From contig NC_087081.1 of the NCBI RefSeq assembly GCF_026151205.1, positions 16,418,837 to 16,482,836 of the forward strand: 64,000 nucleotides of DNA, given 5' to 3'. This document shows, one piece after another, positions 134-59,247 of this stretch. Position 1 is the stretch's first letter, and each line of letters begins with the position of its first letter. Below the pieces are notes generated by a model, which saw only the letters and a list, made by a program, of their open reading frames with translations, made no database searches and was not told the DNA's origin. Made by a program: the position numbers and the translations under genes. This DNA is from Bolinopsis microptera. Taxonomy: Eukaryota; Ctenophora; Tentaculata; Lobata; Bolinopsidae.

Positions 134-1427
134 ATGAGAATTAAGTGCGACTATATAAACAAGTCAACTACTAATATTTATAATTCTTTTACTAACAGCA
201 TTTCTAGGTCCTGTAGTTCTCTCCAAATGATTCTAGTGGTTGTTGCCACGCTTCTCCTGGGAGTGGGCTGTTCTCCAGCACAACAACAGACGTACAATGC
301 ATTAAGTTTTGGGGATGGTCAGGATGACAAAATACAATGGTACCCAGACATGAGCCCATTTGCAACACAAATGTCAATTTGCACCTGGATTAAGAGGCGA
401 AGTGAGACGACCAGATCACCTGTTGCACTAGATTACTACCTCGCCAGTCAGCATGGAATTTATTTAGAAGCTGATGAAAACTGGAACGAGGTAGTCGAAA
501 GTAATCTCAATCTGGATGGTAAATTCAAGGCCCCAGCAAATGAGTGGTTTCATTTCTGCTTGACATGGGGAGACTACATTCTCAGAGCTTACTTCAACGG
601 CCAGGAAGTTGGGTCTACAAGCACGAATAGGAGACAAATAGAGACAGGAGGTAAAATGAGTATGGGGAATAGAGCTGATGAGATGGTGGAGTCGAGGTTC
701 ATTTTTGGCGGAGACGTGTTCAAGATGAACATTTTCAACAGGGTACTCACTTCTACAGAGATAAGAGCAATGGCCTCTGACATGTGTTCTGAGGAGGAGG
801 AGATACTCAACTCAAATAGACTTATCAAGTGGGAGGATATAATGTCGCAACAGAGAACTGGAAATGTGGTTGAGATCCCTACAAACTGCCCCGTAGTTCC
901 TCACACCAAAGAAAGACTGAGACTGATTGAAGAAAGGCTTAACACAGCAGAACAAGAGTTGAAAGAAACCAAGACTTCCCTCACCAACACCCAGGAGGAG
1001 CTGCAAAGCACCAAACAGGAGCTGACAGAAACTAAGCGTAGTTTGAAGTGTCACGAGGACACGCTACAGAGACACTTTAGATACAGGTAAATATAAACTT
1101 TCACTTTCACTTTATTACAGGTAAACTTGAGACTTTCACTTTCACTTTAGATAGAGGTAAACTTGAGACTTTCACTTTCACTTCAGATAGAGGTAAAAAT
1201 TAACTAGGACTTTTAAAAATCGGGAGAAGAGTTTGCATTTGGATTACGTTGTGAAGCATTCAAATACGAACTTAGTTCAATATTTATTATTCATCCTTCT
1301 TGTGGAGATCTTGTAAATCTCTTTTTGATATTCACATATTTAACGCATACTAAATCCATTCCTTTTCAGACCTGTATGTGATGATGAAAGCGAGGAAGAC
1401 ACGATTTGTCTGAACACAAGGAACTAA
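134..1427 (+). CDS. Secreted laminin-G/pentraxin-like protein with coiled-coil tail, two exons
   Basis: Exon 1 is 134-1086 and exon 2 is 1370-1427, joined by a GT donor at 1087 and a TTTTCAG acceptor at 1363-1369. The splice keeps frame and adds 19 codons with two cysteines before TAA. A better start may be the internal Met at 227 (residue 32), because MILVVVATLLLGVGC is a typical signal peptide; the 31 residues before it are polar. Residues about 54-240 look like a concanavalin A/LamG-type jelly roll: a SICTWIKR strand, WFHFCLTWG, a FNGQEVG strand, then FIFGGDVFKMNIFNRVLT. Residues about 257-310 are a charged heptad coiled coil, suggesting oligomers. It is probably an extracellular carbohydrate- or matrix-binding protein; the ligand is unknown. 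It lies antisense inside the MICAL gene, downstream of exon 25. Confidence 0.72.
1098..1196 (+). repeat. Tandem copies of the exon 1 donor region
   Basis: The intron of the LamG-like gene starts with three imperfect copies, roughly 35-40 bp apart, of the sequence around the real donor. Each has CTTTCACTTTCACTT followed by an exon-like end and GGTAAA. Donor-like AG|GTAAA sites therefore recur at about 1120, 1156 and 1193 after the real one at 1086/1087. Confidence 0.7.
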
Positions 1428-1969
1428 AAGCTGCAATTATCACTGGGGGTCATGCTTCACTGTGCGGACATCAACGTGTGTGGGATTCTAGACGTTACTA
1501 TAAATAATTACTATTATCTTTCTAAATAACTTAAGTAATAATCAGCACTATTTTCTCGTCACTTATTTTTTTTTTCTTTTTGGGATTCAATATTATTATA
1601 TAATTTCTTAATTATATCATTATATAAGTGTAATTTCTTTTTTCTTCGCTTAAATTCGTAGCATTTTATTTTTACATGTATCAGCTGAAATTTACCCCCT
1701 GAAATCATCCTAACTCCTCAGACTTACTTTTACTTGTTTACAAGTGAATATTAATTCAAACCACGCATCCTAATTGGTTACCTCTGGGACCAACTTAACC
1801 TGACAACGCTATATGTCTCTCTCTCTCTAGACTCTTCTCACTTCCAACTCGGCAAAAAACTATAGATTTTGTACAAGAAATATCAGTAGCCTCCTCGAAC
1901 GTAAAACATTCGAATCGAAACTCAAAATAAAATCGATCATAAATACTTTATCTTAAATCAAACTCTTAC
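1428..1969. other. Noncoding: 3' side of LamG-like gene and MICAL intron
   Basis: AT-rich sequence that should hold the 3' UTR of the plus-strand LamG-like gene and part of a MICAL intron. No ORF, repeat or RNA gene is recognised. Confidence 0.5.
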
Positions 1970-4184
1970 CTGATGCGATGTCAGGAGTGGGTTTATCTGC
2001 AGGAGCGGGTTTATCTTCGGAAAGAGTTTCGCTGGGAGGGGGTGAAAGTGGTACAGCTGATGGGGATGTCACGGGCTCAGTATCCACCTCATCTGAAAAC
2101 ATAAGGATCTAATTATCTACTTCTTAAACTCGATGAAATCACCAAAAATCCAAAAAATGACCTTATTTAAAAAATAGTTAATGTCAGAAGGTAGGGAAAA
2201 GTAACGTGACATTTCTATAAATCACCGACCATCTAGCCCACTATAAGTCTTGCTGAGCGACAGTTATAAACTATTATCTGTACAAATCTGGCTTAAAACC
2301 AGCTGCCAACAGAATAGTGTACCTAACCCCAGTCAAACTAACCAGCAACAAAGTCCTTAGACTTATCCCCCTTCTTCTTGAAGTTGTTAGAAGAAGGAGA
2401 CATAGTCCTGCTCCTCTCCCTAGCATCTGAGGAGAGTAAGGAGCCCACCGAGTTGGACTTATCACGTGGTTTATCACGTGATTTATCACGTGGTTTATCA
2501 CGTGGTTTGGGAGCAGGGGGTGCCTTGTGTGTCTTCTTACCTGAAGGAGGGGGCACTGTTAATTGGGAGGTGTGTCAGAGTGGGTGGTATATTTGTAGTT
2601 TTAACTTAATAATACGCTTTTAAACAGTGATATGTACTTTAACTGAGCTACCACAGGGTATATCTCGTAATTAAGGTTATTATGCAATTAACGATAGGAA
2701 TCATCAACGGCTGTGAATGAATTGTTCGTGCATAGGATTTAAAATATTCTGTTTCACTAAATCTGTCTTCATGCATTTTCCTTTTAATCTAGTAAACAGG
2801 CTAGAGTCTTCAAATTAGGACTCGTTACGTTAAACATGGTTGTTCTATAATCTTATGATTAAGTTTTTAAATGCTTTAACTCAAACGAGCTTTTAGACTG
2901 ATTATTTAAAGCGTAATCAAGAAATTCGTTTAAACTACAATAATTCCATCAGTTAGGTTATTCCGAATGGTGGCCCTTATTCCGAATGGTGACCCGTGTA
3001 TCACGTGTCACCGCGTGTATCACGTGACACCGCGTGTATCACGTGACACTGTCTACACCACTCTTTAATTGGCACAAGGCCAGATAATTCATGACCGCCG
3101 GATGCAAATCTAGATACACACAATACACATCACCAATCTCACAACACACAGACCGAGCTTTCTGTCTCTTATTTTACCGAAACACGCTAAGGGCCCTAGA
3201 CTCAGTGAACTTCTCGTACTCTCGGGTTTAGGGGGTTTGGGTTTAAGGAGTTTGGTACTCTTGGAAAAGACCCTGCTCCTGGTTTTAGAGGGCTTCACGG
3301 CTGGGAGAGTTGGATGTGAATGGAAATCTCTGCTGTCATGATACATTGATACATTACAGCGAACCAACGAAGCAGGATTTATGTTGTAACTGATTGGCTA
3401 CGATTTTCTGAAGTCAATATGTCAACACGAAGATTTTGGACAGATCACATATTAAACGTTTAATTTTGACTGAAAGCACTCATTGACAACAAAAACGACT
3501 ATAATCAATTAAGCCGAATTAAAGTTACTATTCGCAACATTAAAGGGTAAAATCCATTAACTACGATCATCAACAATGTATGTATTTTAAATTGCCTGAT
3601 TATACGACAACACAAACAATGAGTACTGAATACTGACCGAGACAAAAAAAGGATTTAACTACGATATCGAACTGACCTGACAAATAATGAAACACTTACC
3701 GTAGGGTCTAGTCATGATTTACACCATTACATAATTAATTGATTACATAAAGTAATGAAGATCCAAATTAAAGGCAACTTAAAATTAAGTGAGCTGACTA
3801 AAGAGGTTTTAGACAACCGATAATTCGTTTTCTTCACGATGCAGGATCTGTGTGCGAAAGATTGAAGCACGAAATATAACGGAGGTCACTGTTACAGTAA
3901 CTTACTCTTCTTGCGGACACTGGTGTGACGTCATATCATATCACGTGGTGTGACGTCATATCACGTGGTATGACGTCATATCACGTGTGGTGACGTCATA
4001 CCACGTGAAGCACGAAATAACGAAGGTAACAATAACTTACTCTTCTTGCGGACAGTAACATTGCTACTGATGGGGAGACCCTGACTAGGCATCCCTTCTG
4101 AAGGTAGATGGTCTATTGGGGGTGGTGGACGGTTAGAGGCTGACTTTGAGAGACTGTTGTCTGGTAGTCCTTCCATAGGTAGAT
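1970..4184 (-). CDS. MICAL: MICAL exons 22-25: low-complexity tail
   Basis: Exons 22 (4184-4041), 23 (3300-3178), 24 (2555-2343) and 25 (2092-1970) all begin and end in phase 1, so any could be skipped in frame. They encode Pro/Ser/Lys-rich sequence: [10 protein letters not shown] in exon 22, KPKPPKPES in exon 23, PRDK repeats in exon 24 (coded by CACGTGATAAA units) and acidic Pro-rich sequence in exon 25. Symmetric phase-1 exons of this kind suggest alternative tails. No stop is reached; the exon 25 donor (GTAAGA) leads left out of the resolved model. Confidence 0.85.
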
Positions 4185-7100
4185 CTGGGAGGATCAGTGA
4201 AAATGTTACCAGCTGTTTAAGAATACTGATACTCAGTCAGTAAGTTAAAAGTAAGTGAGTTGATGTTATGTAACTAATATAATTGTTAATATTGTTAATC
4301 AATGAAAATGCCTAGTTTAGGGCACTTCCAGAGAAGCATGAAGCGGTATTCCGCGCAAATATCTCGAAGTGGAATATGGTTAAGGTTAGAGTTAGGGGTA
4401 GGGTTATGGATAAGGTTAGGGTTCACGCTGCGAAATTCCGCTGGATATTGCCTAAGTGATTGTGAAAAAAACACGCGATTGCAGAAAAAGAAACAATTAC
4501 CTTCATGGTAAGAAGAGACTTTGTTAGCGGCAGAGGTGGGTTTCTCCTTCCTGGTGCTAGCAGTCCTTGTTCTCGCCAGCTCTGGAGACTTTGTCTCCGT
4601 TATCTTCACCCTCCCTGTCAGCTTAGGAGACATAGCGCTCGCGAAGGGGTTGGTGTCTGGAGATTTAGGTCGCTTACTTGCAGGAGTGACAGCTTTCTGT
4701 TTTGAGGCTGGTGACTCTGGTCTCCGTTTCTGTTTTGAGGCTGGTGACTCTGGTCTCCGTTTGTTACCAGCTTTGTCGCGGTGTATCTCCAATGCTGTGT
4801 CACGATAGCGAGCATCCGCGGAGGGCATCTTATCCTTAATGGCTGGTGTGGCGGGAAGAGTCTTCAGTGGTCTGGCAGGGCTGGTTTCTGTTTTGGAGGG
4901 CTTTTCTGGTTTTGGATCTGGTTTTGTTGGGACTATTTCTGGGATGTCATCTTCAGGAACGTCAGGGGTGGACGGACGGAACGTTCTGTTAGACATCTTC
5001 ATGGAATCGTAACAGGCTGAAAGATATCTTAGCACTACGATACAAGTATTACAATACTGATTTTTAAATGTTGAAATTATTAATATTACACTTAGATGAA
5101 AACTAGCTTGTGAAGAAGCTACAAAATTACCGCACTTATTCAATGAATGACCCTTAACGATTACCGCGTATGAACAAAGATAAATAACTATTTGCATACC
5201 AGACACAGGACGAGCTTGTTTCTTCTCCTTACTCCTCGTAGGAGGTTTCTTCTGTCCCAACAGACTCTTCTTCATCTCTCGGCTTCGGTTCACTATATCG
5301 TTAAAATGCTTCTTACAGAAGAATCGTCCTGAGGAAAAGAGCTTTGTCAATAAATTGATCAACGGGCGTGGAAAAGTTGTTGAAGATTCGGGAAGACAGA
5401 CAAAATCTGGATGAGTTTGGTTTTATTTTGAGTGTAAAAAGTAGATTAACCAGGAGTGTCAGGGTCAGGTGATGTTATGAGATGGTAGGTTGAGGTCTTC
5501 AGTAGAGTCTGACAATCCTCACACACGAAACACTTCCGGTGGAACACATACCTGGACAGAGGATCAATTACTGATCGATTAATTATTATTAAGATACAAT
5601 GTTTTTAAATATCTTCGCACTCAACGAATCACAAAAAATAACTAGATTCTAAAGTCAATTAAATGTGATATGATAAGTAATATAATATAAAAAGAGAAAA
5701 GATAACTGACCCCTCAATAGCGACACGTTTGAGCACCAGTACACTGAGTGCACAAGTGTGGCACTTCTGGGAACCTTTGTTGGGAGTGTGTTTCTTAGGG
5801 GTGGTGGAAGGAAGCACTTCAACATTATCCACCTGAAATGAGGTTAGTTCACCGGGAGTACGCATACTATGGGTGCTAGAAACTAAAATATAGAAATATA
5901 GAAAATCAAAAAGCAAGGTTTAAGGATCGGTTTGTGTACATATATCACGGTAGAGAGCGTTCAGCAGCTGATAACGCCTTGTTCAGCAGCTGATAACGCC
6001 TTGTTCAGCAGCTGATAACGCCCTGTTCGGCAGCTGATAACATTTTGTTCAGCAGCTGATAACGCCTTGTTCAGCAGCTGATAACGCCTTGTTCAGCAGC
6101 TGATAACGCCTTGTTCAGCAGCTGATAACGCCTTGTTCAGCAGCTGATAACGCCTTGTTCAGCAGCTGATAACGCCTTGTTCAGCAGCTGATAACGCCTT
6201 GTTCAGCAGCTGATAACACTTTGTTCAGCAGCTGATAACGCCTTGTTCAGCAGCTGATAACGCCTTGTTCAGCAGCTGATAACGCCTTGTTCAGCAGCTG
6301 ATAACATTTTGTTCAGCAGCTGATAACGCCTTGTTCAGCAGCTGATAACGCCTTGTTCAGCAGCTGATAACGCCTTGTTCAGCAGCTGATAACGCCTTGT
6401 TCAGCAGCTGATAACGCCTTGTTCAGCAGCTGATAACGCCTTGTTCAGCAGCTGATAACGCCTTGTTCAGCAGCTGATAACGCCTTGTTCAGCAGCTGAT
6501 AACGCCTTGTTCAGCAGCTGATAACGCCCTGTTCAGCAGCTGATAACGCCCTGTTCAGCAGCTGATAACGCCTTGTTCAGCAGCTGATAACGCCTTGTTC
6601 AGCAGCTGATAACGCTTTGTTCAGCAGCTGATAACGCCTTGTTCAGCAGCTGATAACGCCTTGTTCAGCAGCTGATAACGCCCTGTTCAGCAGCTGATAA
6701 CGCCTTGTTCAGCAGCTGATAACATTTTGTTCAGCAGCTGATAACGCCTTGTTCAGCAGCTGATAACGCCTTGTTCAGCAGCTGATAACGCCTTGTTCAG
6801 CAGCTGATAACGCCTTGTTCAGCAGCTGATAACGCCTTGTTCAGCAGCTGATAACGCCTTGTTCAGCAGCTGATAACGCCTTGTTCAGCAGCTGATAACG
6901 CCTTGTTCAGCAGCTGATAACGCCTTGTTCAGCAGCTGATAACGCCTTGTTCAGCAGCTGATAACGCCTTGTTCAGCAGCTGATAACGCCTTGTTCAGCA
7001 GCTGATAACGCCTTGTTCAGCAGCTGATAACGCCTTGTTCAGCAGCTGATAACGCCCTGTTCAGCAGCTGATAACGCCTTGTTCAGCAGCTGATAACGCC

Positions 7101-10100
7101 TTGTTCAGCAGCTGATAACGCCTTGTTCAGCAGCTGATAACGCCCTGTTCAGCAGCTGATAACGCCCTGTTCAGCAGCTGATAACGCCCTGTTCAGCAGC
7201 TGATAACGCCCTGTTCAGCAGCTGATAACGCATTGTTCAGCAGCTGATAACGCCTTGTTCAGCAGCTGATAACGCCTTGTTCAGCAGCTGATAACGCCTG
7301 TTCAGCAGCTGATAACGCCTTGTTCAGCAGCTGATAACGCCCTGTTCAGCAGCTGATAACGCCCTGTTCAGCAGCTGATAACGCCCTGTTCAGCAGCTGA
7401 TAATGCCCTGTTCAGCAGCTGATAACGCCTTGTTCAGCAGCTGATAACGCCTTGTTCAGCAGCTGATAACGCCTTGTTCAGCAGCTTATAACGCCTTGTT
7501 CAGCAGCTGATAACGCCTTGTTCAGCAGCTGATAACGCCTTGTTCAGCAGCTGATAACGCCTTGTTCAGCAGCTGATAACGCCCTGTTCAGCAGCTGATA
7601 ACGCCTTGTTCAGCAGCTGATAACGCCTTGTTCAGCAGCTGATAACGCCTTGTTCAGCAGCTGATAACGCCCTGTTCAGCAGCTGATAACGCCCTGTTCA
7701 GCAGCTGATAACGCCTTGTTCAGCAGCTGATAACGCCTTGTTCAGCAGCTGATAACGCCCTGTTCAGCAGCTGATAACGCCCTGTTCAGCAGCTGATAAC
7801 GCCTTGTTCAGCAGCTGATAACGCCTTGTTCAGCAGCTGATAACATTTTGTTCAGCAGCTGATAACGCCTTGTTCAGCAGCTGATAACGCCTTGTTCAGC
7901 AGCTGATAACACTTTGTTCAGCAGCTGATAACGCCTTGTTCAGCAGCTGATAACGCCTTGTTCAGCAGCTGATAACGCTTTGTTCAGCAGCTGATAAAGC
8001 CCTGTTCAGCAGCTGATAACGCCTTGTTCAGCAGCTGATAACGCCTTGTTCAGCAGCTGATAACGCCTTGTTCAGCAGCTGATAACGCCTTGTTCAGCAG
8101 CTGATAACGCCTTGTTCAGCAGCTGATAACGCCTTGTTCAGCAGCTGATAACGCCTTGTTCAGCAGCTGATAACGCCTTGTTCAGCAGCTGATAACGCCC
8201 TGTTCGGCAGCTGATAACATTTTGTTCAGCAGCTGATAACGCCTTGTTCAGCAGCTGATAACGCCTTGTTCAGCAGCTGATAACGCCTTGTTCAGCAGCT
8301 GATAACGCCTTGTTCAGCAGCTGATAACGCCTTGTTCAGCAGCTGATAACGCCTTGTTCAGCAGCTGATAACGCCTTGTTCAGCAGCTGATAACACTTTG
8401 TTCAGCAGCTGATAACGCCTTGTTCAGCAGCTGATAACGCCTTGTTCAGCAGCTGATAACGCCTTGTTCAGCAGCTGATAACATTTTGTTCAGCAGCTGA
8501 TAACGCCTTGTTCAGCAGCTGATAACGCCTTGTTCAGCAGCTGATAACGCCTTGTTCAGCAGCTGATAACGCCTTGTTCAGCAGCTGATAACGCCTTGTT
8601 CAGCAGCTGATAACGCCTTGTTCAGCAGCTGATAACGCCTTGTTCAGCAGCTGATAACGCCTTGTTCAGCAGCTGATAACGCCTTGTTCAGCAGCTGATA
8701 ACGCCCTGTTCAGCAGCTGATAACGCCCTGTTCAGCAGCTGATAACGCCTTGTTCAGCAGCTGATAACGCCTTGTTCAGCAGCTGATAACGCTTTGTTCA
8801 GCAGCTGATAACGCCTTGTTCAGCAGCTGATAACGCCTTGTTCAGCAGCTGATAACGCCCTGTTCAGCAGCTGATAACGCCTTGTTCAGCAGCTGATAAC
8901 ATTTTGTTCAGCAGCTGATAACGCCTTGTTCAGCAGCTGATAACGCCTTGTTCAGCAGCTGATAACGCCTTGTTCAGCAGCTGATAACGCCTTGTTCAGC
9001 AGCTGATAACGCCTTGTTCAGCAGCTGATAACGCCTTGTTCAGCAGCTGATAACGCCTTGTTCAGCAGCTGATAACGCCTTGTTCAGCAGCTGATAACGC
9101 CTTGTTCAGCAGCTGATAACGCCTTGTTCAGCAGCTGATAACGCCTTGTTCAGCAGCTGATAACGCCTTGTTCAGCAGCTGATAACGCCTTGTTCAGCAG
9201 CTGATAACGCCCTGTTCAGCAGCTGATAACGCCTTGTTCAGCAGCTGATAACGCCTTGTTCAGCAGCTGATAACGCCTTGTTCAGCAGCTGATAACGCCC
9301 TGTTCAGCAGCTGATAACGCCCTGTTCAGCAGCTGATAACGCCCTGTTCAGCAGCTGATAACGCCCTGTTCAGCAGCTGATAACGCATTGTTCAGCAGCT
9401 GATAACGCCTTGTTCAGCAGCTGATAACGCCTTGTTCAGCAGCTGATAACGCCTGTTCAGCAGCTGATAACGCCTTGTTCAGCAGCTGATAACGCCCTGT
9501 TCAGCAGCTGATAACGCCCTGTTCAGCAGCTGATAACGCCCTGTTCAGCAGCTGATAATGCCCTGTTCAGCAGCTGATAACGCCTTGTTCAGCAGCTGAT
9601 AACGCCTTGTTCAGCAGCTGATAACGCCTTGTTCAGCAGCTTATAACGCCTTGTTCAGCAGCTGATAACGCCTTGTTCAGCAGCTGATAACGCCTTGTTC
9701 AGCAGCTGATAACGCCTTGTTCAGCAGCTGATAACGCCCTGTTCAGCAGCTGATAACGCCTTGTTCAGCAGCTGATAACGCCTTGTTCAGCAGCTGATAA
9801 CGCCTTGTTCAGCAGCTGATAACGCCCTGTTCAGCAGCTGATAACGCCCTGTTCAGCAGCTGATAACGCCTTGTTCAGCAGCTGATAACGCCTTGTTCAG
9901 CAGCTGATAACGCCCTGTTCAGCAGCTGATAACGCCCTGTTCAGCAGCTGATAACGCCTTGTTCAGCAGCTGATAACGCCTTGTTCAGCAGCTGATAACA
10001 TTTTGTTCAGCAGCTGATAACGCCTTGTTCAGCAGCTGATAACGCCTTGTTCAGCAGCTGATAACACTTTGTTCAGCAGCTGATAACGCCTTGTTCAGCA

Positions 10101-13100
10101 GCTGATAACGCCTTGTTCAGCAGCTGATAACGCTTTGTTCAGCAGCTGATAAAGCCCTGTTCAGCAGCTGATAACGCCTTGTTCAGCAGCTGATAACGCC
10201 CTGTTCGGCAGCTGATAACGCCTGTTCAGCAGCTGATAACGCCTTGTTCAGCAGCTGATAACGCCTTGTTCAGCAGCTGATAACGCCTTGTTCAGCAGCT
10301 GATAACGCCTTGTTCAGCAGCTGATAACGCCTTGTTCAGCAGCTGATAACGCCTTGTTCAGCAGCTGATAACGCCTTGTTCAGCAGCTGATAACGCCTTG
10401 TTCAGCAGCTGATAACGCCTTGTTCAGCAGCTGATAACGCCTTGTTCAGCAGCTGATAACGCCTTGTTCAGCAGCTGATAACGCCTTGTTCAGCAGCTGA
10501 TAACGCCCTGTTCGGCAGCTGATAACGCCTTGTTCAGCAGCTGATAACGCCTTGTTCAGCAGCTGATAACGCCTTGTTCAGCAGCTGATACAGATAACGC
10601 CTTGTTTAGCAGATGAAATTACTTGGCTCTTTTATCATTATAGCGTGTGGCTTGCTTAGCCACTGGCTGAGGGGCAGAGTGGTTTGCTTAGCCACTGGCT
10701 GAGTGGCAGGGTGGTTTGCTTAGCCACTGGCTGAGTGGCAGGGTGGTTTGCTTAGCCACTGGCTGAGTGGCAGAGTGGCTTGCTTATCCACTGGCTAAGT
10801 GGCAGAGTGGTTTGCTTAGCCACTGGCTGAGTGGCAGAGTGGTTTGCTTAGCCACTGGCTGAGTGGCAGAGTGGCTTGCTTAGCCACTGGCTGAGTGGCA
10901 GAGTGGTTTGCTTATCCACTGGCTGAGTGGCAGAGTGGTTTGCTTAGCCACTGGCTGAGTGGCAGAGTGGTTTGCTTAGCCACTGGCTGAGTGGTAGAGT
11001 GGTTTGCTTAGCCACTGGCTGAGTGGCAGAGTGGTTTGCTTATCCACTGGCTGAGTGGCAGAGTGGTTTTCTTATCCACTGGCTAAGTGGCAGAGTGGTT
11101 TGCTTAGCCACTGGCTGAGTGGCAGAGTGGTTTGCTTATCCACTGGCTGAGTGGCAGAGTGGTTTGCTTAGCCACTGGCTGAGTGGCAGAGTGGCTTGCT
11201 TAGCCACTGGCTGAGTGGCAGAGTGGTTTGCTTAGCCACTGGCTGAGTGGCAGAGTGGCTTGCTTAGCCACTGGCTGAGTGGCAGAGTGGTTTGCTTAGC
11301 CACTGGCTGAGTGGCAGAGTGGTTTGCTTATCCACTGGCTGAGTGGCAGAGTGGTTTGCTTAGCCACTGGCTGAGTGGCAGAGTGGTTTGCTTAGCCACT
11401 GGCTAAGTGGCAGAGTGGTTTGCTTAGCCACTGGCTGAGTGGCAGAGTGGCTTGCTTAGCCACTGGCTAAGTGGCAGAGTGGTTTGCTTAGCCACTGGCT
11501 GAGTGGCAGAGTGGTTTGCTTATCCACTGGCTGAGTGGCAGAGTGGTTTGCTTATCCACTGGCTGAGGGGCAGAGTGGTTTGCTTAACCACTGGCTGAGT
11601 GGCAGGGTGGTTTGCTTATCCACTGGCTGAGTGGCAGAGTGGTTTGCTTAGCCACTGGCTGAGTGGCAGAGTGGTTTGCTTATCCACTGGCTGAGTGGCA
11701 GAGTGGTTTGCTTAGCCACTGGCTGAGTGGCAGAGTGGCTTGCTTAGCCACTGGCTGAGTGGCAAAGTGGTTTGCTTAGCCACTGGCTGAGTGGCAGAGT
11801 GGTTTGCTTAGCCACTGGCTGAGTGGCAGAGTGGCTTGCTTAGCCACTGGCTGAGTGGCAGGGTGGCTTGCTTAGCCACTGGCTTGCTTAGCCACTGGCT
11901 GAGTGGCAGGGTGGTTTGCATAGCCACTGGCTGAGTGGCAGGGTGGTTTGCTTAGCCACTGGCTGAGTGGCAGAGTGGTTTGCTTAGCCACTGGCTGAGT
12001 GGCAGAGTGGCTTGCTTAGCCACTGGCTTGCTTAGCCACTGGCTGAGTGGCAGGGTGGTTTGCTTAGCCACTGGCTGAGTGGTTTGCTTAGCCACTGGCT
12101 ACTAGCAGAGTGGTTTGCTTAGCCACTGGCTGAGTGGCAGAGTGGCTTGCTTAGCCACTGGCTTGCTTAACCACTGGCTGAGTGGCAGAGTGGTTTGCTT
12201 AGCCACTGGCTGAGTGGCAGGGTGGTTTGCTTAGCCACTGGCTGAGTGGCAGGGTGGTTTGCTTAGCCACTGGCTGAGTGGCAGAGTGGTTTGCTTAGCC
12301 ACTGGCTGAGTGGCAGAGTGGCTTGCTTAGCCACTGGCTTGCTTAGCCACTGGCTGAGTGGCAGGGTGGTTTGATTAGCCACTGGCTGAGTGGCAGGGTG
12401 GTTTGCTTAGCCACTGGCTGAGTGGCAGAGTGGTTTGCTTAGCCACTGGCTGAGTGGTAGAGTGGTTTGCTTAGCCACTGGCTGAGTGGCAGAGTGGTTT
12501 GCTTATCCACTGGCTGAGTGGCAGAGTGGTTTGCTTATCCACTGGCTGAGTGGCAGAGTGGTTTGCTTATCCACTGGCTGAGTGGCAGAGTGGTTTGCTT
12601 ATCCACTGGCTAAGTGGCAGGGTGGTTTGCTTATCCACTGGCTGAGTGGCAGGGTGGTTTGCTTATCCACTGGCTGAGTGGCAGAGTGGTTTGCTTATCC
12701 ACTGGCTGAGTGGCAGGGTGGTTTGCTTATCCACTGGCTGAGTGGCAGAGTGGCTTGCTTAGCCACTGGCTGAGTGGCAGGGTGGTTTGCTTATCCACTG
12801 GCTGAGTGGCAGGGTGGTTTGCTTATCCACTGGCTGAGTGGCAGAGTGGTTTGCTTATCCACTGGCTGAGTGGCAGAGTGGTTTGCTTAGCCACTGGCTG
12901 AGGAGCAGAGTGGTTTGCTTATCCACTGGCTGAGTGGCAGAGTGGTTTGCTTATCCACTGGCTGAGTGGCAGAGTGGTTTGCTTAGCCACTGGCTGAGTG
13001 GCAGGGTGGTTTGCTTAGCCACTGGCTGAGGGGCAGAGTGGTTTGCTTATCCACTGGCTGAGTGGCAGGGTGGTTTGCTTAGCCACTGGCTGAGTGGCAG

Positions 13101-16100
13101 GGTGGTTTGCTTATCCACTGGCTGAGTGGCAGAGTGGTTTGCTTAGCCACTGGCTGAGTGGCAGAGTGGCTTGCTTATCCACTGGCTGAGTGGCAGAGTG
13201 GTTTGCTTAGCCACTGGCTGAGGAGCAGAGTGGTTTGCTTATCCACTGGCTGAGTGGCAGAGTGGTTTGCTTATCCACTGGCTGAGTGGCAGAGTGGTTT
13301 GCTTAGCCACTGGCTGAGTGGCAGGGTGGTTTGCTTAGCCACTGGCTGAGGGGCAGAGTGGTTTGCTTATCCACTGGCTGAGTGGCAGGGTGGTTTGCTT
13401 AGCCACTGGCTGAGTGGCAGGGTGGTTTGCTTATCCACTGGCTGAGTGGCAGAGTGGTTTGCTTAGCCACTGGCTGAGTGGTAGAGTGGTTTGCTTGACC
13501 ACTGGCTGAGTGGCAGAGTGGTTTGCTTATCCACTGGCTGAGTGGCAGAGTGGCTTGCTTAGCCACTGGCTGAGTGGCAGAGTGGCTTACTTACGCCGCT
13601 TGTGGAGGCAGTGGATTCTCCGACATCACCCAACTGAAGCAAACACTACATCTCCCGTTAGAAAATAACTTATCAAAAACTGTCATTTGACAGCTAACAA
13701 TTCAGTCTTATATATTTTATCATTCCTTGCGGTATGAACCATCGTAAGTTTAAAAAGTAATTAAATCTCATCTTTGATCTTACTTGAGCAATGAATTTAG
13801 CTTCAGTTTTCTTCCTGAGTTTCCTCTGACTGTGTACCCTCTTTTGAGATCGCCAGGTGATGGTTGGTCTAACATTGGTGTTGGTTTCTCTGACGGTGCA
13901 AGTTTATGTCATAAATAATTACAACACTGCAAATCTATTACATTTATTGAGAATTATGTAGTGTAACGCGATGGAAGTATTTTAAGCGGGCATATCCTGT
14001 CCAAACCCAGGATGCACGACATAAAGAATTTGTTTTAACTTGTTTGTATGAAAAGCATCAATAATCAATCGCTAAGACTAGTAAGTAAGTAGATAATGCA
14101 CTAGTTGGTCTTGCATTGGTCTGTAAATAGTGCACTAAATAGTAAGTAGATAATGCACTAGTTGAGATGAAATAAACCTGGGGTGGCAGCTACTTTATCG
14201 GGAGATGTGGCGGACAGGTCCACTGCAGTAGGTTCGCTGGCAGGCAGGGCGGGTTGGCTGGCAGGTTTCTCATTCTCACTTGTAGCTAACTTTGTCTTCT
14301 TCACCGGCTTATTGTCCAACAACACATTGTCGACCGTCTGATTAACAAGATGTTATTTAACTAATTAACTAATTAACTAATTAACTAATTAACTATTTAA
14401 CTAATTAACTAATTAACAAGATGTTATTTAATTGTTAAACAATTACACTTAATTAATAGTTTAAATAGATAACTCATCAACTATTTACTAATCAACTGAT
14501 TGGATTTGAAACAGAGAAGTTGTAAATGGTAGTTTGTAAAATAAAGTTTTTAAAAGATGGACTTTTGAGCATGCGATATAATTTTGTTCTAAAAACTTAT
14601 TTTGTGCTTTTTTCTATAAATATTAAATAATCACAATGTGGCACAATGTATAATATTTTGCAACAATTCATAAAAAGGATGCTGGCAAATCGAACGCTAA
14701 GACAAATTAACATCGTTTAAACCAAATCACATGTATGTTACTATTTTTGTAGAGCATGCACAAGAATATAGACACCAGTTCCCAATATTATCGAGGTGGT
14801 AAAATCTTACAAATTCTTGTAAACGTAACCAAAATAGTTCTAAATAGTTTCTAATTTCTATCTTTCAACGCCATGCCAATTACGGTGGGTGTACTCATTA
14901 TTTTAGGTAATTTAGTTTGGATCTGAAAAACTAGTTTAGAATCTAAAATCTCATCATGCTAGCATAAGATCAAGTTTTGTGAAATAATCTCAAATAAATC
15001 ACATTAGTAGCAGTTTTTCAGACATGAACTAAAGCCGTAGTACATACATATTACATTACACTGGATCGAGCTTACACAGTGTAATTTCCCTCAGTCTGCG
15101 CCGCGCGGCTATATAAGCGTACGGAGCACAGACTGGAGGAAATTACACTGTGTAAGCTCCAGTGTAATGTAATATGTATTATGTATGTACTACGTTGCAG
15201 GGTTTCCCGGTACAATTACATTCACAAATTCCACAATCACGTGTAACAATCATTCAGGCACGGAACCTACCGGTGGCGGGAGAGAACGGAGCGGTTTGGA
15301 GCGCTTAATACCTTTCTCTAGCTCCTTATAATATTACACAAGGTTTAACGCTGTACCAAATAAACTGACAAACTGTATTTAAAGTGCAGTTAAAGCGATT
15401 ACTAAAATAATCTTTATCATTTTCGTGCTCAACCTTTCGAGATAAACAACGATTGCAGAAACATATTTCACTAAGTTTGCCGCGACAAAAATGTGCATAT
15501 CGCAAAAATGTGCATATATCAGAAAATCTCGATTATCTGGATAAAGACAAACAGCAAAGATATTCGTGAAAAATTTACTCTCAGCCATGTTATAAGCAGC
15601 ATTAACCTAAATTCAACTATTTATAGTTAATTCGTAATTCAACTATTTATAGTTAATTCTTAATTCAACCATATAGAAAACTATAGAAAAGTGAGAGATG
15701 TAATTTTAATTGCATATGTACTGTAGCGACTAGTGGACTAGTGATAAGAATATTTTATACTCATAATTATGCCTTATTTTGTTTTTACATAGTTCTTTCA
15801 AAACTATTTCACGATACCACTAAACTTAGTTAGTCGTAGAAATATGATAAAACCATAAACACTTATAATGATCACGTGATTAAACAATTAGTATTAAGAT
15901 ATGAGTCTTACAAAAACAATTGCACGTGTTAAAACAATTGCGCGGCTCGCCGTAGCAACAGTCCACGTACCTGGTAAACTTTCTGCAGCTCTAAGATGGT
16001 GGAGATGATAGCGAGGAGGTCAGGACCTGACGGAGGTAGGACGTCCTGCGCAGTCAGGGTCTGTATACCCAACTCGTTAAACATTACGGAGATAGCCAGG

Positions 16101-19100
16101 TCCACATTCTGGGAGTCAGAGTTACTCTTTACAACACTCATATCCCTGGGGGAGGTGGGGTTTAGTAAAGATAACCGGGGTTAACCCTTAGAAAATGTAT
16201 TATGATTGGAGGTTACTACTGGTGGGGAAGGTGGGGGCTACTACTAGAGACTGGAGAGGGGGGCACTACTGTGGAGGGAGTGGGGCACTACTGTGGAGGG
16301 AGTGGGGCACTACTGTGGAGAGAGTGGGGCACTACTGTGGAGGGAGTGGGGCACTACTGTGGAGGGAGTGGGGCACTACTGTGGAGGGAGTGGGGCACTA
16401 CTGTGGAGGGAGTGGGGCACTACTGTGGAGGGAGTGGGGCACTACTGTGGAGGGAGTGGGGCACTACTGTGGAGGGAGTGGGGCACTACTGTGGAGGGAG
16501 TGGGGCACTACTGTGGAGGGAGGGGGCACTACTGTGGAGGGAGTGGGGCACTACTGTGGAGGGAGTGGGGCACTACTGGAGACTGGAGGGAGTGGGGCAC
16601 TACTGTGGAGGGAGTGGGGCACTACTGTGGAGGGAGTGGGGGCACTACTGTGGAGGGAGTGGGGCACTACTGTGGAGGGAGTGGGGCACTACTGTGGAGT
16701 GAGTGGGGCACTACTGTGGAGGGAGTGGGGCACTACTGTGGAGGGAGTGGGGCACTACTGGAGACTGGAGGGAGTGGGGCACTACTGTGGAGGGAGTGGG
16801 GCACTACTGTGGAGGGAGTGGGGGCACTACTGTGGAGGGAGTGGGGCACTACTGTGGAGGGAGTGGGGCACTACTGTGGAGTGAGTGGGGCACTACTGTG
16901 GAGGGAGTGGGGCACTACTGTGGAGGGAGTGGGGCACTACTGGAGACTGGAGGGAGTGGGGCACTACTGTGGAGGGAGTGGGGCACTACTGTGGAGGGAG
17001 TGGGGGCACTACTGTGGAGGGAGTGGGGCACTACTGTGGAGGGAGTGGGGCACTACTGTGGAGGGAGTGGGGCACTACTGTGGAGGGAGTGGGGCACTAC
17101 TGTGGAGGGAGTTGGGCACTACTGTGGAGGGAGTCGGGCACTACTGTGGAGGGAGTGGGGCACTACTGTGGAGGGAGGGGGGCACTACTGTGGAGGGAGT
17201 GGGGCACTACTGTGGAGGGAGTGGGGCACTACTGTGGAGGGAGTGGGGCACTACTGTGGAGGGAGTGGGGCACTACTGTGGAGGGAGTGGGGCACTACTG
17301 TGGAGAGAGTGGGGCACTACTGGAGACTGGAGGGAGTGGGCACTACTGTGGAGGGAGTGGGGCACTACTGTGGAGGGAGTGGGGCACTACTGTGGAGGGA
17401 GTGGGGCACTACTGTGGAGGGAGTGGGGCACTACTGTGGAGGGAGTGGGGCACTACTGTGGAGGGAGTGGGGCACTACTGTGGAGGGAGTGGGGCACTAC
17501 TGTGGAGGGAGTGGGGCACTACTGTGGAGGGAGTGGGGCACTACTGTGGAGGGAGTGGGGCACTACTGTGGAGGGAGTGGGGCACTACTGTGGAGGGAGT
17601 GGGGCACTACTGTGGAGGGAGTGGGGCACTACTGTGGAGGGAGTGGGGCACTACTGTGGAAGGAGTGGGGCACTACTGTGGAGGGAGTGGGGCACTACTG
17701 GAGACTGGAGGGAGTGGGGCACTACTGTGGAGGGAGTGGGGCACTACTGTGGAGGGAGTGGGGCACTACTGTGGAGGGAGTGGGGCACTACTGTGGAGGG
17801 AGTGGGGCACTACTGTGGAGGGAGTGGGGCACTACTGTGGAGGGAGTGGGGCACTACTGTGGAGGGAGTGGGGCACTACTGTGGAGGGAGTGGGGCACTA
17901 CTGTGGAGGGAGTGGGGCACTACTGTGGAAGGAGTGGGGCACTACTGTGGAGGGAGTGGGGCACTACTGGAGACTGGAGGGAGTGGGGCACTACTGTGGA
18001 GGGAGTGGGGCACTACTGTGGAGGGAGTGGGGCACTACTGTGGAGGGAGTGGGGCACTACTGTGGAGGGAGTGGGGCACTACTGTGGAGGGAGTGGGGCA
18101 CTACTGTGGAGGGAGTGGGGCACTACTGTGGAGGGAGTGGGGCACTACTGTGGAGGGAGTGGGGCACTACTGTGGAGGGAGTGGGGCACTACTGTGGAGG
18201 GAGTGGGGCACTACTGTGGAGGGAGTGGGGCACTACTGTGGAGGGAGTGGGGCACTACTGTGGAGGGAGGGGGGCACTACTGTGGAGGGAGTGGGGCACT
18301 ACTGTGGAGGGAGTGGGGCACTACTGGAGACTGGAGGGAGTGGGGCACTACTGTGGAGGGAGTGGGGCACTACTGTGGAGGGAGTGGGGGCACTACTGTG
18401 GAGGGAGTGGGGCACTACTGTGGAGGGAGTGGGGCACTACTGTGGAGTGAGTGGGGCACTACTGTGGAGGGAGTGGGGCACTACTGTGGAGGGAGTGGGG
18501 CACTACTGGAGACTGGAGGGAGTGGGGCACTACTGTGGAGGGAGTGGGGCACTACTGTGGAGGGAGTGGGGGCACTACTGTGGAGGGAGTGGGGCACTAC
18601 TGTGGAGGGAGTGGGGCACTACTGTGGAGGGAGTGGGGCACTACTGTGGAGGGAGTGGGGCACTACTGTGGAGGGAGTTGGGCACTACTGTGGAGGGAGT
18701 CGGGCACTACTGTGGAGGGAGTGGGGCACTACTGTGGAGGGAGGGGGGCACTACTGTGGAGGGAGTGGGGCACTACTGTGGAGGGAGTGGGGCACTACTG
18801 TGGAGGGAGTGGGGCACTACTGTGGAGGGAGGGGGCACTACTGTGGAGGGAGTGGGGCACTACTGTGGAGAGAGTGGGGCACTACTGGAGACTGGAGGGA
18901 GTGGGGCACTACTGTGGAGGGAGTGGGGCACTACTGTGGAGGGAGTGGGGCACTACTGTGGAGGGAGTGGGGCACTACTGTGGAGGGAGTGGGGCACTAC
19001 TGTGGAGGGAGTGGGGCACTACTGTGGAGGGAGTGGGGCACTACTGTGGAGGGAGTGGGGCACTACTGTGGAGGGAGTGGGGCACTACTGTGGAGGGAGT

Positions 19101-22100
19101 GGGGCACTACTGTGGAGGGAGTGGGGCACTACTGTGGAGGGAGTGGGGCACTACTGTGGAAGGAGGGGGCTACTACTGGAGACTGGAGGGAGTGGGGCAC
19201 TACTGTGGAGGGAGTGGGGCACTACTGTGGAGGGAGTGGGGCACTACTGTGGAGGGAGGGGGCACTACTGTGGAGGGAGTGGGGCACTACTGTGGAGGAA
19301 GTGGGGCACTACTGTGGAGGGAGGGGGCACTACTGTGGAGGGAGTGGGGCACTACTGTGGAGGGAGTGGGGCACTACTGTGGAGGGAGTGGGGCACTACT
19401 GTGGAGGAAGTGGGGCACTACTGGAGACTGGAGGGAGTGGGGCACTACTGTGGAGGGAGGGGGCACTACTGTGGAGGAAGTGGGGCACTACTGGAGACTG
19501 GAGGGAGTGGGGCACTACTGTGGAGGGAGTGGGGCACTACTGTGGAGGGAGTGGGGCACTACTGTGGAGGGAGGGGGGCACTACTGACATGTCTTTAGGA
19601 GAGCAGAGATGAACCAGACCACAAAGTAAGACTCCGTCCCTCCAGCAGGTATCTAGATCTGTAACGGGCAGGTAAGGTAGGATCAGTTTCAGTCTGTCAC
19701 TGCACCACTTTCTCAGGGTCTCCTGATCATCGCTACGTGAGGGACTCAGTGAGCGCTTCTTCGCCAACACCCCGCTCTCGTTCGAGGGGTTCTTGGGCTT
19801 GCGCGTGCGCGCAAACGTGCTCTTTTTCCATTGTTTGTGAACTGTTTCTGTTGTTTCTCCGGCCAGTCGTTTGTTAGGCGACGTCTTTTCGGGCGAGTAA
19901 TTCTCGATGCGGTCTGCAATGATGGAATGGGTTAAGTGCGGTTCAAAATGTGGAAAATCATCTCAAAAACCCAAAATTATAGAATTTGTACTATTCTGAA
20001 TTCAATCTAACGTTACACGACCACAAATCGTTTTCATATGGCTATCACTAATGAAAAAACATGAAGTAGGTAGGAACTTTGGACAGAGCAGCATGCCTTA
20101 CCTGGTTACCTGGTTACCTGGTTAGTGGTTAGTGGTTACCTGGTTACCTGGTTACCTGGTTACCTTGTTACCTGGTTACCTTGTTACCTGGTTACCTTGT
20201 TACCTGGTTACCTACATGAAGTAGGTAGGTACCTTGGACGGAGCAGCAGGCAAAAAATGCCTTCGGCAAGATACGGAACTTAAACTTCATGGGGATTGAA
20301 CGAGGGCCTTACTAAAGTGCTCCATTTTGAACAAATCGCCATAAAGAGCGCAGATTGCATAACAAGGGACGTTACTAAAACAGGATTTAAAGAAGAGATC
20401 GGTATAAAACAGAGGAACACACCCTGGTGACTGGGAGGATGAGTTAACAGCTACGTTTTAAACGTAACCTGCACAAATGTACATTCTTACAAATTAGAGG
20501 GTCTGAAGAATGTCTAAACTGAAGAATGTTGCCGGACACGTCACCACGTCTAAACTCATATTATGTTCGTGCTTTTTAGATACGATTTTCAAACAAGGTG
20601 AGCGATAGAATGCTTAAAGTCATAAAAAGTACATGTACATGACTGGAAAAAAAGTTTTCAAACATTTTGCTTATGGCAGTGTAGACTGTAGCACCATTAA
20701 TAAACACATTTTTGGGATGTTTATTAAATTTTATGATTCTGCGCCATGCCACAAAACGCTTGGCCCTGAATTGTGCGACAAAACCAGTTTATCGAACTTT
20801 AGTTTTCTATGCTAATAATATGAACAAATCCAGAATTTTTAAACAATTTCTAATCTAGTTCAAGTGTTGTAATTAATATGTATTAAAAACATTAAAACAG
20901 CATTTTCAAAATAATATGCTAAAAGTTCACCTTGTTTATTAACGTTCTCTTTATCGTCATTCTCATAAAGAAAGGACAAATCCTCACTATACTTGGGTAT
21001 CAACCTGTACCTGTAATATTCACCATTAATAGAAAGGCGAGATTAAATCATGAGTACCAATCTAATCAGTGAGTTGTGGTGAAAGGAAACTAGATTAAGA
21101 AGCAATTATAAAACGAGTAAATAACAAAACAAGTAAATTATCAAGTAAGTGTATAATGAGTAGTAAAGTTACCTTGATTTGGGGTTCATAGTGTAGGCGC
21201 TGTGTTTCTTGTTCATGTTCTCGTTGCTAGTTTGATGAAGTATCTTGAACAGTGCCATCCTCTCCTCAAGCAGCTCTTTGGGTTTTGTCCCTGAAATTTA
21301 ACCTAGTTTCAGGACGAGTTAAGCAACTCTTTGGGTTTTGTCCCTAAAAGGAACAGGTCACCTCAACATAACCATTGAGTAATGGAACAGATTTCTAGCC
21401 GTCCAAATATCAAAATGTGCACCCTTTTGATTGTTTCAACGTTAAAGTTAATCACTCTTAATTGTTAAAACCTGATTGATGCTGCTGAATCATCCACATA
21501 AGGTCCATACAGGATAAGAAACCTCTTGCACAGCCTGTTCCCAGGGGCCAGAACGGCTCCATAAGACCGTCCCCTACCAATCCTGCAACAGTAGGTTTAT
21601 TTTTAAGTTTATATTTTGACTGCTGGTTTAAAATGGTTGAGGGGCGTGAAACTAGACAAAATAGCAGCAAACAATTCAACAAGAAGTATCTTTACTTTTA
21701 GGATAAAATCTGTAAATAAAAAATAAAAACCGATAATGAGTCGTTTCCCCCGCCGTTCGAGAATCTTGGCAGCGTACTCCGCACTGTACATTAAAACACA
21801 GTCGCGCCGCGCATTCATTGACATGCTAGCTATATACATCACATCTCCGCAAGCAATACTCGCGCGCTTCACTGCGCGCTAGTTGTCATGGTAACTAACG
21901 AACGAAAGGAACGACAACATATTCAAACCCACCTACCGCGCGCTATCTCTAAAATAAATAAAAAAGGGTGAAACGGAAAAAATAAAAACCGATAATGAGT
22001 CGTTTCCCCCTCCGTTCGAGAATCTTGGCAGCGTACTCCGCACTGTACATGGATGTGAAATCAAAGATAGCGACATCAGGTCTATTATTGTCCGGGTTCA

Positions 22101-25100
22101 CTGCAAAGTCAGTGTGAGGGAGCCCTGTACTGAAGTCTGCTGCTTCAGACACGAAGTTCAGGAGTGAGGGATTATCCACGTTCTGGTACGCTAGCAGCTT
22201 TATCACGTCACCGTGGTCCTGGGGGAATGTTACCATGGTAACAGTAACTAACCAGGCACGTAGCCAGGGGGGGGGGGGGGCTAGGGGGGCGGCAGCCCCC
22301 CCCCCCCCCCCCCCGGAAAAAATCCAAGCAAACATTCTAGAAGACTTCTATAATTATAGTCAATAGTGTCCCCTAGACCGTAGGAAATGTAAAAATCTTA
22401 AGACGATGAGGCCTGAGTAAGTCGTAAATTCTGATTGGAGAATGCAGATTGCTGTTGTGAAGTTACCAAATTTACGTGAGTACTTGATTCTTTTCAATCC
22501 CAGTTTATTGCTGTCCTACAAATTTCTTTAATGCCAAATGTCGTCTAAAACACCCTGTTTCGCAAAATATTTCCGGGGGGCTGCGCCCCCCTAGCCCCCG
22601 CCAAGGGGCTCCGCCCCTGGACCCCGCTGGGGGCTGCGCCCCCAGACCCCTGCCACAGCTTGCTCGCTTCGCTCGCTGCGCAGCTTGATTGGACGCGTCG
22701 GCTCGCCGACAGCCCCCCTCAAAGAAAAATCCTGGCTACGTCCCTGTAACTAACATAGTTACGGTAGTAACGGTAGTAACTAGTAGTAATGATAGCTCTA
22801 GGAGGGATGAGATAGAACAACAACTTAATTAATAATTTTAGTTGTACAGTTGGATTATAATATGAGAGAGGTCTAGGTAACCAACCTCTTTTAGCACCCC
22901 TTTTTTTAGTAAACACTGTTTCTTGGCGGTCATCACAAAGTAGTGGGTATCATCCTGAAATTACACGTGTTAATTATTGTATTAACTATTTCAGAGCTTA
23001 ATTAACATCAAAAAACCTGCTTGTTTTAGAGGATCTTTTTCATTAAGGATATCAAATAATTACAATGACTGAGTCCACAACTGCAAAACTTCTTACTTTA
23101 TAGTAGACGATATTCTCTAAGTCTATGTCTGTTTCTGATTTGAGATCAGCAAAGAACTTCTGATTAAAGAGCGCAGCTACACCACTAATTTCTTCAATCT
23201 TAGCTTCATCTTCACTTTTCTTGTTCTTGAAGTTCGCCGTAATACCTACAATAATAATTTATATATAATATACATACTATACATTATATACATTATACAT
23301 TATACATTACACCACTTCTTTCTTAACATTAGAGAAAGTTTAAAATATTTCGATCAACTTATTATAAGATTTTTCCGGCGTTCCAAAGTTAGAAGAAGTA
23401 TGTTAATTTGAAAGGACATATACTCCCTGCTACTGGAGTGAAAGCAATATCTAAATAATGATAAACTCAGTGAAACTGATAAACTTCAGCTGTTTAACTA
23501 AAGGTCGTACTTCTAAGTAAATCAGTTAAATAGCTAAAGCAATGTACCTAAAGGTCGTACTTCTAAGTAAATCAGTTAATTAAATAGCTGAAGCAATGTA
23601 CCTATAGCTAGTTTAGCTCGAAACTCTTTTCTCTGGAATCCAGGAATAGAATTTCGTTTCCCGTCAGCTCCCACTAGAACCTGTCATAAAATAGTCGTCA
23701 TTTCTCAAGCTTTCTAAAAGAAATTAGCAAAGGATCTATAGTAGTATAAGTATAGTACCCCAATAGTATTCCTACAGCAAGATTCTAAGATATCCTGCGA
23801 TTAAATTGAACTATTGTTGTTATTCGAAGCGTATCATTTTATTCTATGACGCCTTCGCTTAAAATCCTTTACACAATACATAAAAAGAGATACAGACAGT
23901 GTACAAAGGGACTGGTTACCGAAGGGTACAAAGGGATATTACTAAAACTGGTTACCGAGCCCAGTAAGTTTGATTTAAGTACTAGAAGTACTAGAAGTAC
24001 TAGAAGTACTAAGTATGTAGCATGTAGTATGTAGTATGTAGTATGTAGTATGTAGTATGTAGTATTTTCACGGTTTTTTATTTACTCTACAGTGTAAACT
24101 TTTGAAACTGTCAATAGTTGAATGCAATATATAAATTTAGGGAAATTTACCAGCGTAAAATCTACGCTTGTAAATGTACATTTACGCTGTAGATACAGAG
24201 AACCCTACTATGGGACAAATAGCATGGCCCTCCGACAATTCTGTAGCACTTATTCGTTATCAAGCACAATCTTCAGTTTCTGACTCTAAGCACTGAGTAC
24301 ACATTTTCTGTAGACTTTCAAAGCTTTCTTGAGGCTTTTCAGGACCGAATGTATGTCTACATAATATATTCTTATTTTTCCAGTGTGCTTACTTGAGCTT
24401 TACATGATCTCAGATGAACATTTCTTAGAATTCGAACATACCTATATACATACTATACAATAATAATCTCTACTATAATTCAGAGAATTCTTTCTGCTGT
24501 ACGACCGCCCACGTGCAAATTAGACGAGAAATAGGAAGTTGCATAGTAACCATGGTAACGAGGGTTATTACACGCACGTGCACGTGCAATGATTGTTTTA
24601 ACGACATTTTGATCGGTTTTAAAATTAAGGATTAAAATTAGTTTGTCCTCTATAAGTATAAAGGCAGTTACACATAATGCAAATATCTCAAAACATTGAA
24701 CACCATAATGAGAGATATGAAGGGCCAGTTGGTAGATCACCGACCGGCTATAAGCCGGCTACTAACCGGCTATAAGCCGGCTTATAGCCGGCTACAATTT
24801 TTATAGCCGGTTAGTAGCCGCTTACATTTGTTGTTGAGCGACGGCTATTAGCCGGTTATAAGCCTGCTATTAGCCGTTTTGGTATTAAAAAGTTAAAAGT
24901 GGTTATAAGCCGGCTATAAGGCGGCTATAAGCCGGTTATAAGATATTAACTCAACTACATCGTACTGAACGATAGTCAGGAGCCGGCTATAAGAAATTCA
25001 GTGAAAACGGCTATTAGCCGGTTATAAGCCGGCTATTAGCCGTTTAGGTATCGAAAGTGGTTATAAGCCGGCTATAAGCCGGTTATAAGATACCTATTAA

Positions 25101-53103: not shown

Positions 53104-53695
53104 CTAATACAATACCTCTCTATACCTCTCTATACCTCTAATTACCTCTATATACCTCTCTATACCTCTGTATAGTGTATACCTCTGTATACCTCTGTAT
53201 ACCTCTGTATACCTCTCTATACCTCACTATACCTCTATATACCTCTCTTTACCTTTCTATACCTCTATATACCTCTCTATACCTCTCTATACCTCTGTAT
53301 ACCTCTCTATACCTCTGTATACCTCTGTATACCTCACTATACCTCACTATACCTCACTATACCTCTCTATACCTCTATATACCTCTCTTTACCTTTCTAT
53401 ACCTCTCTATACCTCTGTATACCTCTCTATACCTCTGTATACCTCTGTATACCTCTGTATACCTCTGTATACCTCTCTATACCTCTCTGTACCTCTCTAT
53501 ACCTCTGTATACCTCTCTATACCTCTCTATACCTCTCTATACCTCTGTATACCTCTCTATACCTCTGTATACCTCACTATACCTCTCTATACCTCTGTAT
53601 ACCTCTGTATACCTCTCTATACCTTGAACTATACCTCTGTATACCTCTCTTTACCTCTATATACCTCTCTATACCTCTATATACCTCTATAGGCT
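53104..53695. repeat. 10-bp tandem array TATACCTCTG/C
   Basis: About 58 units of TATACCTCTN, upstream of MICAL exon 1. The 10-bp unit without stops gives a spurious plus-strand ORF at 53175-53627. Confidence 0.95.
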
Positions 53696-53744
53696 TTGTG
53701 GGACTGAGTATAAGTGTGTGAGGTTATCACAATATCGCGTGTCG

Positions 53745-59245: not shown

Positions 59246-59247
59246 TG

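Follow-up and report, generated by a model that had tools for sequence, protein, structure and literature searches.

In the human CBS gene, the units of a variable number tandem repeat (VNTR) repeat the 5' splice site (donor). The VNTR has a 31-bp unit and lies at the boundary of exon 13 and intron 13 (PMC1395315, PMC5188458), and more repeats are described there as going with lower CBS activity (PMC5188458). This is the nearest known case to the repeats described here, from the ctenophore Bolinopsis microptera. The window, by which is meant the whole analysed stretch of 64,000 nucleotides (C10:16418837-16482836, in a genome of 264.65 Mb in 232 contigs), contains a MICAL gene and a laminin G-like (LamG) gene with duplications at their splice sites, and tandem arrays at splice sites of kinesin and myosin genes were found elsewhere in the genome. 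Like the CBS VNTR, these include minisatellites at exon-intron boundaries. The CBS VNTR is a single human locus with population data, whereas here several genes are involved, at acceptors (3' splice sites) as well as donors, in one assembly and at the level of sequence only. The phenomenon resembles the CBS VNTR, here recurring in several genes and at donors as well as acceptors.

Tandem duplications published as sources of intron gain also cross an exon-intron boundary and copy splice signals; there a new intron arose, whereas the copies described here lie inside an old intron. A 24-bp exonic segment carrying AGGT has been reported in multiple tandem copies from fission yeast (Zhu and Niu 2013, cited after PMC4974935). 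This too is a multi-copy short tandem array with AGGT in a gene, but it is exonic and is described there as linked to introns across the copies. In canine LHX3, a 7-bp repeat in the short intron 5 affects splicing through its copy number (PMC3223203). It shares with the present arrays the position of a tandem repeat within an intron; it differs in that the splice sites are described as unaltered by the change in the repeat, the effect being exerted via intron size. Among the titles listed in searches of open-licence literature, none reports junction-spanning or ctenophore minisatellites, and neither 'tandem repeat' nor 'minisatellite' turned up when passages of a paper on chromatin loops in ctenophores (PMC12221973) were searched for these words.

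The central finding is a set of junction-spanning minisatellites, whose unit consists of the end of an exon, its splice site, and the start of the intron. This CBS-type composition was found at donors in two kinesin loci (L022 and L020), a myosin locus (L050) and the LamG gene, and in acceptor versions at L023, L015 and L026. The array of L022 consists of 25 units of 35 bp and opens with the donor; every unit is made of 30 nt of exon end (KPLVDWVFQG) followed by GTAAG. At L020, a unit of about 33 bp, comprising 26 nt of exon (INTSLSELG) and GTAAGT, is present in 52 copies, and at L050 a 40-bp unit of 31 nt of exon plus GTAGGAGAG occurs 22 times. The exons show kinesin or myosin homology; when the pieces of 34-35 amino acids were searched by themselves, the match of L020 was clear (E 2e-11) and those of L022 and L050 were weak. 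Translation continued beyond the first donor runs into stop codons, immediately in L022 and also in L020. A 13-bp array of 22 copies begins at the donor of a kinesin exon in L007, and L045 holds a similar array (31 bp, 4 copies) beside an exon whose identity was judged by eye only. With the few-copy donor versions in L015, L018 and L014, duplications that carry or abut a donor recur in further genes (L007, L014, L015, L018, L020, L022, and L050), as the original prediction would have it.

Acceptors carry arrays as well. The acceptor array of L023 (49 bp, 26 copies) takes in the acceptor together with some 30 nt of a kinesin exon, and that of L020 (26 bp, 112 copies) reaches 3 nt into the exon; further acceptor cases are found at L026, L015, and, with two copies, L007. 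The L020 locus (C12:14427800-14435800) holds eight separate tandem arrays, including the 52-copy donor array and the 112-copy acceptor array.

Do such repeats favour donors over other positions in genes? Two samples of genes were used. Sample 1 comprised 40 loci, together with two dynein stretches (L041, L042) that served as coding training only, and sample 2 comprised 10 loci, for which the donor-versus-acceptor comparison was fixed in advance of the result. The sampled genes are a non-random set, chiefly myosin, kinesin, TCP1, and adaptin; in searches with dynein (PF12777), kinase (PF00069), and ABC (PF00005) models, most of the top-scoring candidates listed were long matches within one exon. 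The 142 introns of sample 1 were placed by homology (66) or by a home-made gene finder (76). In the first round of homology placement a junction was obtained for 49 of 60 pairs of exons, and 44 of these were kept (score at least 0); the second round yielded 24 of 33, with 22 kept. The gene finder recovered 66/86 donors, 57/86 acceptors, and 52/86 whole introns on test data that overlap the training data. Next to several of the giant arrays (L020, L022, L050) it called no exon at all, and because it misses introns at such arrays, the counts from sample 1, sample 2, and the merged-edge test given below are biased. In sample 2, three of the ten loci yielded no intron and some of the 'exons' touched by repeats were themselves repeats (L046, L048).

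A homology-placed set covering 48 of the 52 loci, in which exon ends were taken from Pfam models, was meant to avoid this bias. Splice score and frame were used to place 163 donors, out of 183 exon ends, and 177 acceptors, out of 197 exon starts, without visual inspection of each; one acceptor at least (L022:7780) is apparently misplaced. A local duplication lay in or beside 13 of the 163 donors and 9 of the 177 acceptors (Fisher P 0.38). At intron points 30, 60, 100, 150, and 200 bp inside the donor the counts were 17, 17, 12, 12, and 17 of 163, and at equal distances inside the acceptor they were 16, 16, 15, 18, and 18 of 177; exon points 40 bp inside gave 4/163 on the donor side and 3/177 on the acceptor side. 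Overlap at donors is thus at the level of the intron, that at acceptors somewhat below it, and that in exons far below. A tandem-repeat finder touched 11/163 donors and 9/177 acceptors, and arrays of at least three copies were present at 8/163 donors and 5/177 acceptors, as against 7-14/163 and 8-16/177 at intron points. Copies that include at least 8 nt of exon were found at six of the 163 donors and five of the 177 acceptors, one of the five probably being misplaced. The comparison of donors, acceptors, and intron points, which had been proposed as the check on the original prediction, gave no donor excess over the intron background in the gene sample. Specificity for donors is likewise not supported: 13/163 lies within the background of 12-17/163, and acceptors also carry junction-spanning copies and arrays. 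Sample 2, which rests on the gene finder only, gave 2/40 donors and 4/40 acceptors, with an interior rate of 3.7%.

The positions of array edges point in the same direction. Around donors, the 5' edges of arrays in 22-bp bins from -66 numbered 0, 3, and 5, and from 0 onwards 10, 4, 1, 1, 2, 1, 0, 5, 4, and 2. Fifteen therefore fall in -22..+21 bp, compared with five in the five bins from +44 to +153, the next three bins holding 5, 4, and 2. For these counts the L007 donor, placed at 3473, was manually reset to 3468, where the array starts; both positions are inside the array. Around acceptors, the 3' edges counted upstream numbered 1, 1, and 4 in the bins from -66, and 8, 6, 4, 3, 1, 1, 5, 3, 2, and 2 from 0, with 12 in -22..+21. 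Array starts do cluster at donors, as had been claimed, but the clustering is not unique to them, since 3' edges pile up at acceptors too. Such a two-sided pile-up is what selection on exons would be expected to produce when arrays grow only into the intron.

How do the duplications in the window compare? The original prediction listed six places where a duplication starts at or carries a donor, and at each of them a duplication was found at or beside the donor, which is putative in the case of MICAL exon 17. The genes and the repeats at or near their splice sites are as follows.

227..1427, plus strand: LamG-like two-exon gene, from an open frame and splice signals (Laminin_G_3 E 7.6e-17)
Within it, plus strand: exon 1 ends at 1086; intron 1087-1369; exon 2 1370-1427
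1953..35735, minus strand: MICAL gene, modelled exons 5-25, from the exon model (Rossman_Mical 2.1e-54, CH 2.9e-14, LIM 8.3e-09)
1073..1197, plus strand: LamG exon 1 donor array; 36-bp unit, 3.5 copies, Tandem Repeats Finder (TRF) score 187; the first unit spans the donor and AG/GTAAA is repeated
3894..3919, minus strand: copy of the exon 22 donor region; 26-bp copy of 4029-4054, 135 bp apart, score 23; inside intron 22
3936..4007, minus strand: 20-bp tandem repeat (TRF) between both exon 22 donor copies
5959..10590, minus strand: second intron 17 array (TRF); 22 bp, 211 copies, away from splice sites
10647..13593, minus strand: intron 17 array (TRF); 32 bp, about 92 copies, beginning at the putative exon 17 donor (13594)
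16256..19586, minus strand: intron 13 array (TRF); 22 bp, 149 copies, beginning at intron offset +2 (donor 19588)
21268..21349, minus strand: duplication spanning the exon 11 acceptor; copies 21321-21349 and 21268-21296, score 23; exon 11 starts at 21290
21718..21791, minus strand: copy of the end of exon 9 and its donor; 74-bp copy of 21977-22050, 259 bp away, score 71; inside intron 9
23498..23604, minus strand: exon 6 tandem pair of 50/54 bp from the donor (23601); TRF score 173

The exon numbering of the original prediction matches the exon model made here. Exon 23 ends at 3178, exon 25 is probably the last exon of the gene, and the FAD-binding motif is carried by an exon beyond the modelled ones, at 50576-50770. 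Doubt attaches to exon 17 and its donor, since joining exons 16 and 18 through exon 17 breaks the phase.

The six loci are of mixed kinds: long minisatellites (exons 13 and 17), short tandem arrays (LamG and exon 6), and spaced copies (exons 22 and 9). The exon 9 copy is present, but at a spacing of 259 bp it is not head-to-tail, and the exon 17 array does stand at the donor, though at offset +1 and not six bases after it. The claim that copies recreate AG/GT stands for LamG and for exon 6, where homology extends 3 nt into the exon, and fails for the other four loci on reading of the sequence. Absent from the original list are two acceptor cases. The exon 11 acceptor, AG/GGACAAAACCCAAAGAG, is duplicated 53 bp upstream as a mirror image of the donor cases, and a 20-bp copy stops 3 bp before the exon 15 acceptor.

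A site was counted as touched when a local direct repeat (score at least 16, +1/-2; distance at most 400) lay within 10 bp of it. By this rule 6/21 donors, 2/21 acceptors, and 16/63 random intron points in the window were touched. When the 19 MICAL donors of introns 6-24 were rotated along the gene, with the three big arrays collapsed, five touched donors were observed against a mean of 3.18 expected (P 0.16), and a binomial comparison with the collapsed intron coverage of 0.19 gave P 0.29. Repeats are so abundant in this gene that its donors are touched about as often as background positions, and the view that a chance association is unlikely was not borne out. Donor-specific anchoring as an established fact was rejected on three grounds: 2/40 in sample 2, 13/163 at background level, and the rotation P of 0.16.

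The explanation that we consider probable is that, in a minisatellite-rich genome, tandem duplication of the ordinary local kind affects both intron ends and selection sorts the products. Short stretches would duplicate locally and then expand throughout genes; copies in exons would rarely survive, and those in introns would be tolerated as more or less neutral. A duplication straddling a splice site might be tolerated as long as the exon-proximal copy works, with selection acting on that copy and the outermost splice site being the one used, and growth would then be possible only into the intron. The outcome would be arrays that begin at donors and end at acceptors and that may multiply the splice site, as in the kinesin and myosin arrays. 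A donor-targeted repeat-making process is not needed, given that both intron ends are affected and that overlap is no higher than in the intron interior.

An alternative, possible but unlikely in our estimation, is that donors are preferred birth sites of tandem duplications, through a break or slippage process linked to transcription, for example in R-loops, or to the 5' splice-site word itself. It would account for the array starts at donors and for the 6/21 donors touched in the window, and it is favoured by the genome-wide word counts given below. Several results weigh against simple duplication and selection. In sample 1 the counts lean to donors (11, against 5 acceptors, of 142 introns; mean interior rate 9.4%). 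A merged cluster-edge test on 202 introns, for which 20 window introns were used and MICAL intron 5 was left out, found seven starts at donor positions -5..+5 where 2.0 were expected, and three against 2.1 at acceptors; without the window the values are 4 vs 1.7 and 2 vs 1.8. A whole-genome search for three identical words 20-50 bp apart, in which one array yields many matches and the reversed pattern is the control, gave 1491 vs 12 triples for the donor-like word AGGTAAGT and 1351 vs 188 for AGGTGAGT. For the acceptor word TTTTCAGG the excess was weaker (367 vs 93), although it is commoner as a single word. Finally, a donor-like score was reached by sense units in 22/126 arrays, compared with 9.0 for shuffled units, 15 for antisense, 1 for reversed, and 8 for complemented ones; the comparison excludes nine loci for which no gene strand is known. 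A purely symmetric model does not predict the excess of donor words over the acceptor word.

Does this excess reflect real donors? Overlap at the 163 homology-placed donors equals the intron background, acceptors show a like pile-up of edges and like arrays, and sample 2 gave only 2/40. Single-word frequencies per 100 kb of strand in the sampled sequence are 2.43 for AGGTAAGT, 0.86 for AGGTGAGT, and 10.87 for TTTTCAGG, the last raised by the L015 array; at placed sites the words occur at 6/163 donors, 1/163 donors, and 8/177 acceptors, respectively. Word excess and numbers of real sites do not run in parallel, because AGGTGAGT matches nearly as often as AGGTAAGT while being much rarer at placed donors. 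Among about the first hundred matches listed for each word, and assuming contig order, there were at least five arrays for AGGTAAGT (C1 to 3.1 Mb, two sharing a unit), at least nine for AGGTGAGT (C1 to 17.6 Mb), and at least four for TTTTCAGG (C1-C3 to 10.7 Mb, two sharing a unit). The word search was rejected as proof of donor seeding, since AGGTGAGT is rare at donors yet array-rich and TTTTCAGG is present at acceptors yet yields few array matches. Strong donor-like units at loci of known strand (10 sense and 4 antisense of 110 arrays, with 250 and 158 sites outside arrays) do not separate word from place. Not only the place but also the word itself may underlie the excess. That the 5' splice site or donor word is a genome-wide birth site of minisatellites in this lineage, beyond neutral duplication and selection, giving '5' splice-site satellites' with tens of authentic donors per intron, is likewise doubtful.

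Two neighbouring arrays found by the word search, C1:401054 and C1:428574, have units of 34 and 54 bp with, by eye, a common exon-like stretch ahead of GT. This suggests paralogous genes with arrays at the same donor, and speaks in favour of donors as birth sites. Two large arrays of a 47-bp unit containing TTTTCAGG lie about 200 kb apart at C3:10522198 and C3:10725660.

Could splice-site arrays be kept for a function, for example U1 recruitment or buffered splicing of long introns? Single introns with 25 to 52 consensus donors that are nearly identical might be taken to favour this, but recent expansion accounts for the near-identity, and use of inner donors is probably harmful in view of the stops past the first donor in L022 and L020; we regard a function as very unlikely. 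Long arrays are hard to assemble, and counts like 52 or 112 copies may be incorrect. That part of the pattern is an assembly error in repeat copy number is slightly less credible still, as the two-copy cases and the array borders in single-copy flanks are independent of exact copy number. The last alternative, which is highly improbable, takes the copies as steps of intron gain through tandem duplication of AGGT-bearing exon segments, a route that had been proposed for the window and is published (PMC4974935); AG/GT is indeed repeated at LamG and exon 6, but it is recreated at 2/6 loci only, the copies at all six loci lie in existing introns of the model with no new intron between them, so that intron gain is rejected there, and the copies at the other named loci are likewise inside existing introns (coding exons were not searched for such gains).

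Other repeats and open reading frames (ORFs) were noted in the window. MICAL coding exons 21 and 24 hold in-frame tandem copies of 33 bp (4694-4762) and 12 bp (2459-2508). In MICAL intron 5 there are tandem and scattered copies (24440-26411 and 29600-32484) of a roughly 295-bp element that has TGACCACGGGTTTTCTAGT at its end, and a 545-aa intronless ORF (26994-28631, minus strand) reads as a putative type II membrane glycosyltransferase with a DDD motif. A 215-aa ORF (30676-31323, minus strand) may be part of a MULE-type transposase, and a 360-aa ORF (37246-38328, minus strand), located in the interval that separates MICAL exon 5 from the exon at 50.6-50.8 kb, is a putative seven-helix receptor. 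Large tandem repeats at 53108-53718 and 59172-60770 are visible as repetitive open frames. An Rfam scan of the whole window gave no match.

If the donor-word excess does sit at real donors, the idea, suggested long ago, that splice sites and local duplication are linked would become directly testable. Introns that contain 20 to 50 tandem copies of their own 5' splice site are natural experiments on the choice among identical sites, and splice-site arrays of this kind are raw material for intron gain and for new isoforms.

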